Assembly (NCBI GenBank): GCA_947627275.1
Contig: CANQVK010000009.1
Coordinates: 27,742-91,741, forward strand
Length of the DNA stretch: 64,000 nt
Direction: 5' to 3'
Source of the DNA: an uncultured Ruminococcus sp.
Lineage (GTDB): Bacteria > Bacillota > Clostridia > Oscillospirales > Ruminococcaceae
The position numbers were made by a program, and so were the translations under genes. Below, piece after piece: positions 10,165-55,528 of the stretch (position 1 is the first letter of the stretch; every line of letters begins with the position of its first letter). The notes beneath the pieces are model-generated. The model was not told where the DNA came from, did not search any database, and was given only the letters and a program-made list of their open reading frames with translations.

Positions 10165-10225
10165 ATAAGCAACATTCTCCCTTGACGTCAATATCAGCAG
10201 CTTAAGTAATTTTGTCTCTTTTGTA

Positions 10226-10251: not shown

Positions 10252-10422
10252 AAGGGAACGCCCTCTCTTGCAGGGCTTTCCCTCTTTCCAAACAGTCCGC
10301 AGGACTGTTTGGAAATTCACCCTTTGCGGAGCGCTTAACGCTTTGTGGGACGCTGTCCCACACCCTGCCAGAGGCGCTGCCTCTGGACTCCGCCAAAGGG
10401 ACGCCGTCCCTTTGGAATCCCA
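10252..10422 (-). repeat. Six-hairpin palindromic repeat element, copy A (minus orientation)
   Basis: Reverse complement matches the copies at 42141-42318 and 55362-55528. Confidence 0.9.
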
Positions 10423-10469
10423 ATGTTAGTTTACTTTAGTTAATGACGGACGTCCCTGTTGCATTAGTA

Positions 10470-12443
10470 TCAGGTTCTTTTGAATTGATGATCTATATTC
10501 GCTTTGGTCATGGTAAACATAACGGGTCTGCCATGCGGACAATGACGTATTTTTTCATCTGAAAATATCTGCTCCGCCAAAGCTTTCATTTCCTCGGGAG
10601 TACTCTTGTCGTGCGCCTTTACAGCAGCCTTGCATGCCATAGTGTGCAGAACGTCGTCGAGATACCCCGACTGCGGATTCTGCTTGTGCATGAGCAGATT
10701 TTCCGCAACCTCGCATATGATACCCTCCGCATCGGAATCCATAATAAACGTTGGCAGAGCAGTAACGGTCACGTAGGGCTTTTCGCTGAGATCAAAGGAA
10801 AATCCCAAGTCCGTCAAAAGCTCCGTATTATTCTCCAGCGCGTCTGTCTCCTCGGAGGTCATAAGAAGCTTTATGCCCACAAGAAGCTGCTGACTGTACT
10901 GACGGCAATTTCTGCTTTTCAGCCGTTCAAAAATAATACGCTCGTGTGCGGCATGCTTGTCTATGATAACAAGCTTGCCCTCTCTTTCCACCAGCACGTA
11001 CAAGCCAAACGCTTCGCCTATGACCTTTATTTCGGGCAGTTCGGGCTGAACCTCTTTCGGCTTTTCAATAACCTCCGGCTCGTCCTTTTTCTCAAACGAG
11101 CTTACGTTAAGATACTTGAACCCCTCGTCCGCCGCTTCTGCCGCCGCACGAACCGCCTCCAGATCAAGCTTTTCAGGCTCGAGCAGGGGACGTTCGTCTT
11201 TCGGCTCGCTCCTCATTATAACGTATTCCGACTTCTCCACGGGCTTTTCGTCAAGCCTGCTCCATTCGGAGCGTTCCTCTGCGGACTCCGTCTGCGCTTT
11301 CGGCGGTTCGGGAAATTCACTTTCACGCAGTTCCGCCTCCTTTTTGGCTATTTCGGATATGGGCGTAAACATTATCTCCTGCTGGACGGGGGCTTCGGGT
11401 TCTTCATGCCTGAACCAGTCACGCTGCTCCTTCGTCTCAAATTCGTATACAAGTCCGCCGCTGATAAAGGCGTTTTTCACAGCGAAGTAAACTGCGTTGG
11501 TCACGGCTTTTTCGTCCGTAAACCGCACCTCCGCCTTAGTCGGGTGGATATTCACGTCAAGCATCGACGGGTGCATTTCTATCATAAGAACACATGCAGG
11601 GAAACGTCCAGTCATTATCATGTTTTCATAGGCGTTTTCAAGCGACGAGGAACAAAGACGCGACTTTACATATCTGCCGTTTATGAAGAAATTCTGAAAA
11701 GACCTGTTGAACTTGGCATACAGCGGCTTCACCGTATAGCCGCTTACTCTTATACCGTCCGCTTCATATTCAACAGGCAGCAGATCGCGGGTAAAATCCT
11801 TGCCGAAAACGGCATATACGGCGGAATACAGCTCTCCGTCCCCTGCGGAATTAAATTCCATACGATTATCCCTGACCATTTTCACGGCAATATCAGGGTG
11901 AGACAAAGCGATCTTCTGCACTATATTGCTTACCGCATTGGCTTCGGTAACGTCCTTCTTCATAAACTTCGCACGGGCAGGAACGTTATAAAAAATATCC
12001 CGTATAATTATTGTCGTACCGTCGGGACAGCCGCTTTTTTCATGGAGCTTTTCCTCGCTGCCCTCAATTGAATATACCGTTCCGTAAGTCTCGCCCTTCT
12101 GCTTTGTCATGACCTCTACCCTCGATACGGCGCAGATCGAAGCAAGAGCTTCTCCTCTGAAACCGAGGGTATATATATTATCCAAGTCCTCTTTTGAAAC
12201 TATCTTGCTTGTGGCATGGCGCAGAAACGCTTTCGGAACGTCCTCAAAGGAGATTCCGCAGCCGTCGTCGGTAACTCGCATATATGTTGAACCACCGTTT
12301 TTTATCTCAATGGTGATGTGTCTTGCTCCCGAATCTATGGAGTTTTCCACAAGCTCCTTTATAACGGAGGAGGGGCGTTCGATGACCTCTCCTGCGGCGA
12401 TAAGCTCCGATATTTCTTTGCTGAGTACGTTAATTGCCGGCAT
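10470..12443 (-). CDS. mutL: DNA mismatch repair protein MutL
   Basis: IAAGEVIERPSSVIKELVENSIDSGA, GFRGEALASI, C-terminal MutL domain. Confidence 0.97.
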   Translation of the reverse strand: MPAINVLSKEISELIAAGEVIERPSSVIKELVENSIDSGARHITIEIKNGGSTYMRVTDDGCGISFEDVPKAFLRHATSKIVSKEDLDNIYTLGFRGEALASICAVSRVEVMTKQKGETYGTVYSIEGSEEKLHEKSGCPDGTTIIIRDIFYNVPARAKFMKKDVTEANAVSNIVQKIALSHPDIAVKMVRDNRMEFNSAGDGELYSAVYAVFGKDFTRDLLPVEYEADGIRVSGYTVKPLYAKFNRSFQNFFINGRYVKSRLCSSSLENAYENMIMTGRFPACVLMIEMHPSMLDVNIHPTKAEVRFTDEKAVTNAVYFAVKNAFISGGLVYEFETKEQRDWFRHEEPEAPVQQEIMFTPISEIAKKEAELRESEFPEPPKAQTESAEERSEWSRLDEKPVEKSEYVIMRSEPKDERPLLEPEKLDLEAVRAAAEAADEGFKYLNVSSFEKKDEPEVIEKPKEVQPELPEIKVIGEAFGLYVLVEREGKLVIIDKHAAHERIIFERLKSRNCRQYSQQLLVGIKLLMTSEETDALENNTELLTDLGFSFDLSEKPYVTVTALPTFIMDSDAEGIICEVAENLLMHKQNPQSGYLDDVLHTMACKAAVKAHDKSTPEEMKALAEQIFSDEKIRHCPHGRPVMFTMTKANIDHQFKRT

Positions 12444-42066: not shown

Positions 42067-42140
42067 AAAATACCCTCTCAAGGAAACGGACGGCTATGCC
42101 GCCCGATTATTTTCTCATTATATTCACAATTTTAGCGAAC

Positions 42141-42318
42141 TAACATCGGGATCCCAAAGGGACGGTGTCCCTTTGGCGGAGTCCAGAGGCAGCGCCTCTG
42201 GCAGGGTGTGGGACAGAGTCCCACATAGCGTTTAAGCGCTCCGCAAAGGGTGAATTTCAAAACAGTCCTGAGGACTGTTTTGAAAGAGGGAACGCCCTGC
42301 AAGAGAGGGCGTTCCCTT
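42141..42318 (+). repeat. Six-hairpin palindromic repeat element, copy B
   Basis: CCAAAGGGACGGTGTCCCTTTGG; CCAGAGGCAGCGCCTCTGG; TGTGGGACAGAGTCCCACA; AGCGTTTAAGCGCT; CAAAACAGTCCTGAGGACTGTTTTG; GGGAACGCCCTGCAAGAGAGGGCGTTCCC. Confidence 0.95.
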
Positions 42319-42384
42319 AATAAAGACACTGAACACCTTGCCCTTACTAAAGAAACAATAATCGCTTAAGTTAAAGACTTCAAG

Positions 42385-43821
42385 TTATTGACCGCTATTG
42401 AACCTTTTGACCTCCTCGTCAATAACGCCCGTCCATGCGTCGCGGAGAGCCGCCCATGAATCGACCGCTTCGTTACCCTCAAGAAGCGCAGTCGTAAGGT
42501 TATTCATTACGCCTCTTGTCTCATAGGTATAATCACCGTCTCCGTACATTCTCTCGCCCATTCCGTAGCCGAAATCAAACATCGGGGTCATGTTCGACGG
42601 ATCGAGATAGCTCTGGAGCGCATCGTACTGCTCCTCCGTCACAAATGACCTTACATTGCCTGCGGCTGTTTTCTGTACAATAAGAGCCTTCTGCTTTTCA
42701 AGCTCCCTGTATTCCTCCTGCGTTGCGGCAAGTCTCTCGCACTTTATGTAGGCTGCGACGGCTTCGCCTTTCTGCGACCCCTTAACAAGCATCCTTGCGG
42801 CAAAATTGCAGCAGAGGTAATTATCGTCCGCATCGGGAGCTTTCGGGAACGGCACTATCATAAGGTCTGCATCGGGATTCTTTGAATTTGAAGCGCCCAG
42901 CGCCCAGTCAGCCATAGCGAAAAACAAGGTAGACTTATCATCGGGGAAATAGCCTATCCATTCGGGATCGTAAAGCTTCTTTGACGCTATCTCCTGCATG
43001 AGCAGTTCAGCCTTTTCTATCTCGGGGTCGTTTATATTATTGGAGAAAACGCCGTCGTCGTAATTAACTATGGTATGACCCGTTGACTGTATGATCGCCT
43101 GACCGAACCAACCGTTTATGCCGTATCGCGTCTGTCCCTCGGCTGCGCCCGAAACAAAGGATTCCATCATATCCATCATTGCGTCCCAGTCCCATTCGCC
43201 GTCAAGATACAGCTCGTAAGGGTCCTCAAGACCGGCAGACTTCATAAGATCGCGGCTGTAGGTTATAAGCAGAGGGTCGGATATAATGTACGGCATAACG
43301 TAATGGCTGCCGTTATACTCAAACATGTCGATAACGTCCTCCATATCGTCCCACAGACCTTCGTTTACGCCCATTATATCGAAATAGGGGTCAAGTGGCT
43401 GATACTGATCCTTTGCAACGCCGTTAGGAACAGCGTTCCACTCGTAGGGGAACATATCGACCTCGTCGCCGCTGAGTATCATTGAAGCAAGCTTGTTATA
43501 TTTCTCGGTGGAACTGGTCTGAACGTAGTTTACTTTAGCTCCGTAAACGTCCTCAAAAAGCGAAAGCGCAACCGATCTGTCCTGATTATTCTGGGGATTA
43601 AGGTCATAGTCTGCAAGCCATGTTATCGTCTGACCGCTTATGTCAACAGAGTTTTCCCCTTTAACCTCCTCCTCGTTTGCGTCAACGGAAAACTCGTCCT
43701 CCGTCTTGTAGCGGCTGTTATCTTCTGACGAGGAGGATTCTTTATTCTGACAAGAAACGACCGACGACATCGTCAAAGACATCGCCGCAAGTCCCGCAAG
43801 AACTTTTCTGATCTTGTTCAT
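42385..43821 (-). CDS. ABC-type extracellular solute-binding lipoprotein (sugar family)
   Basis: Lipobox VVSC; ITWLADYDLNPQNNQDRSVALSLFEDVYGAKV; paralogue of 56689-58089. Confidence 0.85.
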   Translation of the reverse strand: MNKIRKVLAGLAAMSLTMSSVVSCQNKESSSSEDNSRYKTEDEFSVDANEEEVKGENSVDISGQTITWLADYDLNPQNNQDRSVALSLFEDVYGAKVNYVQTSSTEKYNKLASMILSGDEVDMFPYEWNAVPNGVAKDQYQPLDPYFDIMGVNEGLWDDMEDVIDMFEYNGSHYVMPYIISDPLLITYSRDLMKSAGLEDPYELYLDGEWDWDAMMDMMESFVSGAAEGQTRYGINGWFGQAIIQSTGHTIVNYDDGVFSNNINDPEIEKAELLMQEIASKKLYDPEWIGYFPDDKSTLFFAMADWALGASNSKNPDADLMIVPFPKAPDADDNYLCCNFAARMLVKGSQKGEAVAAYIKCERLAATQEEYRELEKQKALIVQKTAAGNVRSFVTEEQYDALQSYLDPSNMTPMFDFGYGMGERMYGDGDYTYETRGVMNNLTTALLEGNEAVDSWAALRDAWTGVIDEEVKRFNSGQ

Positions 43822-55361: not shown

Positions 55362-55528
55362 TAACGTCGGGATTCCAAAGGGACGGTGTCCCTTTGGCGG
55401 AATCCGGAGGCAGCGCCTCTGGTGGAGTGTGGGGCAAAGCGTTAAGCGCTCCGCAAAGGGTGAATTTCAAAACAGTCCTGCGCACTGTTTTGAAAGAGGG
55501 AACGCCCTGCAAGAGAGGGCGTTCCCTT
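55362..55528 (+). repeat. Six-hairpin palindromic repeat element, copy C (hairpin 3 deleted)
   Basis: Matches copy B with collapse of TGTGGGACAGAGTCCCACA to TGTGGGGCAA. Confidence 0.92.

Follow-up and report, generated by a model that had tools for sequence, protein, structure and literature searches.

The closest described relatives of the elements analyzed here are insertion sequences of the IS4 family, in particular IS231, the REP/BIME/REPIN repeats, hairpins that arise by template switching, and the structured RNAs collected in Rfam. IS231 has ends of the form CAT-------AA--TAA, yields target duplications of 10-12 bp, and is nearly confined to the B. cereus group (PMC2266710). The REP/BIME/REPIN elements are dispersed intergenic palindromes of 20-40 bp (PMC3733652). 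Template switching homogenizes the arms of palindromes and inverts their spacers (PMC8604942), and hairpins can be maintained by this process without any selection on RNA (PMC8794818).

The multi-hairpin core found in a 64,000-nucleotide stretch of the genome of an uncultured Ruminococcus (hereafter, the window) combines traits of all these systems. The ends that bound some of its copies agree with the published IS231 pattern except for the third base, which is C rather than T, the 10-bp duplication falls inside the published range, and a YREK transposase is encoded in a relative; the host, however, is Ruminococcus rather than the B. cereus group, and, unlike IS231 and its MITEs, the elements carry as cargo a conserved multi-hairpin core that has other ends in other species. 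They are MITE-like in that they lack a transposase, have a 10-bp duplication, share their ends with an autonomous element, and, in the case of copy A, correspond to an empty site in relatives. The core resembles REP/BIME/REPIN elements in being dispersed between genes as palindromes, some of them in inverted pairs, but it is a 178-nt module of five hairpins, associated with target duplications and insertion sequence ends instead of a RAYT. With the hairpins produced by template switching, it shares two-sided changes without intermediates, homogenization of arms, and exact inversion of loops, with the difference that, here, these changes recur across a dispersed family, and one loop is changed at 8 of 8 loci. 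Covarying stems and conserved loops are likewise features of the Rfam RNAs, none of which matches the core, either at gathering scores or, convincingly, at relaxed thresholds.

The preliminary description of this DNA had reported three copies, A, B, and C, all of which are present in the window at the places given, with copy A reaching 10428 (Table 1). Three is the count for the window rather than the total: a whole-genome search recovers about 45 full and partial copies in this genome (G000), and there are many more in the genus. The sister species (G129, 90% identical) contains 85-107 copies, the covariance model giving 107 matches that include fragments. This model, built from 23 copies of the present genome, matched 58 of 80 sampled Ruminococcus genomes and gave no match in the remaining 22, so that the proposed search of this and related genomes did turn up further copies. 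In a pattern scan of GTDB, the hosts belonged to Ruminococcus, chiefly to R. flavefaciens and to genomes from the rumen, with one further record labeled just uncultured Clostridia. The Ruminococcus group includes R. flavefaciens, a cellulose degrader of the rumen. No DNA match to the core was detected in 24 genomes from other families of the order, and no description of it was found in the open-access literature, to which the search was confined, subscription journals lying outside it. A plasmid or phage element was considered and rejected: plasmids give no match and phages give two partial ones. A longer variant of the core, with about 63 extra bases that form more hairpins within stem 3, occurs at five loci (L184, L185, L186, L191, and L193).

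The conserved pairing and the covariation noted at the outset are real. Across 104 aligned copies, 96.6% of the cells are paired and 46 of the 59 pairs have changed on both sides, in an alignment that was fitted to the covariance model and is thus biased towards structure; when the partners are slid by 1-3 columns, paired cells fall to 31-55%. Of six ordered stems originally proposed, stems 1, 2, 3, 5, and 6 hold up, being paired in 97-99.6% of the cells genus-wide, whereas stem 4 (AGCG/CGCT; 72.4%) and a 3-bp helix enclosing stems 2-4 (84.9%) pair too weakly to be accepted as real structure. The loss of stem 3 in copy C was likewise borne out, as was the compensatory change in stem 5, which is altered on both sides. 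In copy B, the first arm of stem 1 starts with CC after GGGAT, and the computed fold of the entire 265-nt element has an energy of -113.9 kcal/mol (z = -8.5). In most genomes, the tip of stem 5, AACAGTCC-RGT-GGACTGTT, and the heptaloop of stem 6, GCAAGWG genus-wide, are conserved, and the stem bases below them covary freely. The stem-5 triloop is hypervariable, among the genomes examined, in G000, G129, and G089 (L244-L255) only; in the others, it reads AGT or GGT with few exceptions.

Table 1. Core copies, stems, and inverted repeats in the window (pairing percentages refer to the 104-copy alignment; fractions for inverted repeats are matches to CACTATCCACAACTTAAG)
Feature	Position	Strand	Remarks
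Copy A, right inverted repeat	10189..10206	-	14/18
Copy A, core	10252..10428	-	flanked by a miaA-like gene and by a gene, probably mutL, that ends at 10470
Copy A, left inverted repeat	10434..10451	-	degenerate, 10/18
Copy B, left terminal inverted repeat	42118..42135	+	degenerate, 12/18, near chance
Copy B, core, 178-nt multi-hairpin	42141..42318	+	one of the top matches to model R1
Copy B, stem 1 CCAAAGGGAC/GTCCCTTTGG (helix 1)	42154..42176	+	99.3% of cells paired; two-sided changes at 9/10 pairs
Copy B, stem 2 CCAGAGGC/GCCTCTGG (helix 3)	42183..42201	+	99.6% paired
Copy B, stem 3 TGTGGGAC/GTCCCACA (helix 4)	42207..42225	+	96.8% paired; two-sided changes at 8/8 pairs; 3' arm absent in copy C
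Copy B, stem 5 TTTCAAAACAGTCC/GGACTGTTTTGAAA (helix 6)	42255..42285	+	triloop 42269-42271
Copy B, stem 6 AGGGAACGCCCT/AGGGCGTTCCCT (helix 7)	42287..42317	+	99.0% paired; heptaloop GCAAGAG conserved
Copy B, right terminal inverted repeat	42365..42382	+	degenerate, 10/18; CTTAAGTT retained
Copy C, core	55362..55528	+	stem 3 without 3' arm; stop codon of an S4-domain-like gene 7 nt before

Alignment of the flanks places some of the cores within longer elements that have inverted ends, CACTATCCACAACTTAAG. Allowing up to 3 mismatches, the genome contains 151 occurrences of this end, compared to 2 for the reversed control, and the end also bounds shorter elements of 30-282 bp. One 30-bp element, possibly the smallest of the family (L069:1501-1530; G000:C12:28852-28881), consists of just two abutting ends that share CTTAAG and has a perfect 10-bp duplication, CCTCGAAAAC. 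A 10-bp duplication flanks the elements in a set of 29 that are bounded by these ends, with 196 of 290 positions matching against a mean of 110 and a maximum of 139 among 2000 shuffles; duplication lengths of 8, 9, 11, and 12 gave no signal in the same set. Clear ends and a duplication match of 9-10 out of 10 are found in the core-bearing elements L009, L018, L184, and L185. No target duplication was seen at the three window copies; the inverted repeats of copy C are not recognizable, and a 12-bp stretch around the left repeat of copy A is absent in G129. The characterization of the family as non-autonomous, dispersed, and devoid of coding sequence stands, but that of lacking a transposase signature does not, because the IS4/IS231-type ends and the 10-bp duplications lie beyond the bounds initially drawn, which can be extended to the degenerate terminal repeats (42118-42382 for copy B).

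A candidate for the autonomous partner comes from a relative. The G018 genome carries a 1413-bp insertion sequence (L095) that shares these ends and has a duplication of 10 bp, GATGCTAAAC; its transposase scores 139.2 bits against the IS4 model NF033592 of NCBIfam (cut-off 115) and contains the Y-2-R-3-E-6-K signature, YFKRWPVEVKFDIVK. In the assembly of the present genome, there is no intact insertion sequence, only ends at contig edges: contigs are capped by both ends of an L095 homologue, which is what the collapse of a multi-copy insertion sequence in assembly would produce.

Copy A is shared with the sister species, and its site is empty in six other relatives. In homologous intergenic regions, the position or the orientation of the core differs between species, so these copies look like separate insertions. 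The left edge of copy B, at 42118, is the point where similarity to the sister species stops; opposite 42118-42386 of the window, G129 has another hairpin-rich element, with ends of the same type and no core. Two insertions specific to G129 (L351 and L350) align with the window too poorly for duplications to be read.

The core is not bound to one kind of ends. Both ends are at chance level in 12 of the 28 copies of this genome and in 41 of the 73 of G129, and the cores between them, 93-95% identical, are as well kept as the others; either the ends decay while the core stays, or the core has another route of spreading. G018 possesses the intact L095 and yet its own cores lack such ends. Instead, it has convergent pairs of cores around a common bidirectional terminator-like hairpin, AGAGAGAAAT...ATTTCTCTCT (L217, L219, L225, L229, L230, and L235). 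In G072, the core is bounded by ATAAATCATAATTTA-like ends, and in G032 (L196-L215), cores lie between TGTCAAAAAAG-like ends, outside which a terminator-like hairpin is present on either side. The G032 arrangement looks as if insertion had duplicated the entire terminator-like hairpin. Recent amplification from a single master copy is contradicted by the chance-level ends around a well-kept core and by the saturated triloop.

How the copies change can be read directly from eight orthologous loci found between this genome (28 copies) and G129 (73 copies in the part of that genome covered). The flanks of these loci differ at 8.5% of the bases. Inside the core, differences in stems 3, 5, and 6 involve entire blocks at several of these loci, and no locus has the same stem-5 triloop in both genomes, 19 of 24 bases being different; at two loci, one triloop is the exact reverse complement of the other (TGC/GCA and TTC/GAA). 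Loops and their reverse complements co-occur beyond chance in each of the two genomes (p < 2e-4, with copies that are not independent), and the variants of stems 3 and 5 occur in all combinations, without linkage (p = 0.25). Judging by these sequence comparisons, template switching within palindromes, together with exchange between copies, appears to account best for the block swaps and loop inversion. Since whole stems have been exchanged and loops inverted at the orthologous loci, covariation in the core is not by itself evidence of function. The original statement that covariation implies selection on, or copying through, structure is thus retained in part: the covariation is real, but selection does not follow from it alone.

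The strongest rival explanation is that pairing is kept purely at the DNA level by template switching and copy exchange, in which case the covariation would carry no information on an RNA and the family would be an ordinary, functionless miniature transposon. It accounts for the inverted loops, has precedents for arms and spacers (PMC8604942) and for hairpin maintenance (PMC8794818), and fits the preponderance of two-sided Watson-Crick to Watson-Crick changes (229) over single changes to G-U (67), with G-U making up just 2.3% of the pairs. However, a process confined to DNA treats the strands alike, so single changes away from Watson-Crick pairs should yield G-U and A-C equally. Genus-wide, G-U exceeds A-C by 67 to 26 (p = 2.5e-5), and in the two sister species, by 35 to 18 (p = 0.027), counts that rest on an approximate tree of recombining copies; transitions at unpaired sites, as a control, are balanced (130:124 and 50:47, respectively). 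The conservation of the RGT and GCAAGWG loops where stems vary freely and the sense bias relative to genes also speak against this explanation, which we regard as possible but would not favor.

That bias is apparent in gene calls that were script-made and codon-scored: at co-directional sites, the core is in the sense orientation in 65 cases and antisense in 35 (p = 0.0035), and it occupies convergent gaps more often than divergent ones (44 vs 17; p = 7e-4), with a median distance from the stop codon of 13-96 nt, depending on the genome; in G087, the gene-context trend is reversed. The excess of G-U and the sense placement favor some degree of constraint on the transcript of the sense strand, with a confidence that is moderate owing to recombination among copies and to the approximate tree. 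The notion of selection on structure thereby gains some support from a strand-specific test, and for the sense strand. Several cores, L220, L221, L223, and L230 in G018 and L014 in G000, follow genes with dockerin-repeat-like C-termini, perhaps by chance.

Such placement might suggest that the host benefits from the core as a 3'-UTR RNA, for example a processing barrier or an anti-termination module, selected locus by locus, with the transposon ends incidental. The preservation of cores between chance-level ends, the median of 30-71 nt past stop codons in G000, G129, G018, G032, and G035, and the convergent pairs around the shared hairpin in G018 would fit. Nevertheless, we consider this improbable, given how few copies are orthologous even between genomes 90% identical (the eight pairs described above), the location of L022 and L010 beyond a terminator-like hairpin, the antisense orientation of copy B relative to the gene at its right, and the 22 sampled genomes of the genus without a match.

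The least credible alternative, and one that we deem very improbable, is the initially suggested REP/BIME-like family, with a RAYT (Y1) transposase as its mover. In its favor, the palindromic structure, intergenic location, high copy number, and inverted pairs in G018 could be adduced, but it is at odds with the lack of any match to PF01797 (Y1/RAYT transposase) in the copy-rich G000 and G018 genomes and with the presence of 10-bp duplications and IS4-type ends. Y1 transposition of the IS200/IS605 kind makes neither such duplications nor such ends.

It appears likely that the core is the conserved five-hairpin cargo of a non-autonomous, miniature mobile family that is probably mobilized by an IS4-type transposase, undergoes concerted evolution, and may also be constrained as RNA. 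In G000 and G129, some cores occupy frames with IS4-family, IS231-like ends and 10-bp duplications, and these frames were probably moved by the transposase acting in trans; ends and duplications are seen in a minority of copies, whereas we infer the trans-action and the rest. The core seems to outlast and change its ends, as other species carry other ends and many copies without recognizable ends keep it. Its concerted evolution would proceed by template switching and copy exchange, with hairpins replaced as blocks and loops inverted, as the orthologous loci indicate. Finally, and this is the weakest step, constraint may also bear on the folded form as RNA, which would probably serve the host transcript as a 3'-end element, as suggested by the excess of G-U over A-C, the conserved loops, and the sense placement after genes. 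More tentatively, and with some doubt on our part, the core could be viewed as an independent selfish RNA/DNA module of Ruminococcus that rides unrelated transposon ends from species to species and is maintained in working order as a folded 3'-end RNA, with one hairpin tip continually rewritten in one lineage.

Taken together, these observations define a mobile family that is mosaic and non-autonomous, has IS4/IS231-like ends in this lineage, and carries a structured, genus-wide core that outlives the ends, is shaped by template switching, and is probably under constraint as RNA as well. A structured module here retains its sequence while transposon ends vary by species. The family provides a natural, high-copy test case for the extent to which covariation in hairpins comes from selection or from template switching: swapped stems and inverted loops can be seen directly in orthologous copies of sister species, and constraint at the RNA level can be told apart from the DNA process by a strand-specific control.
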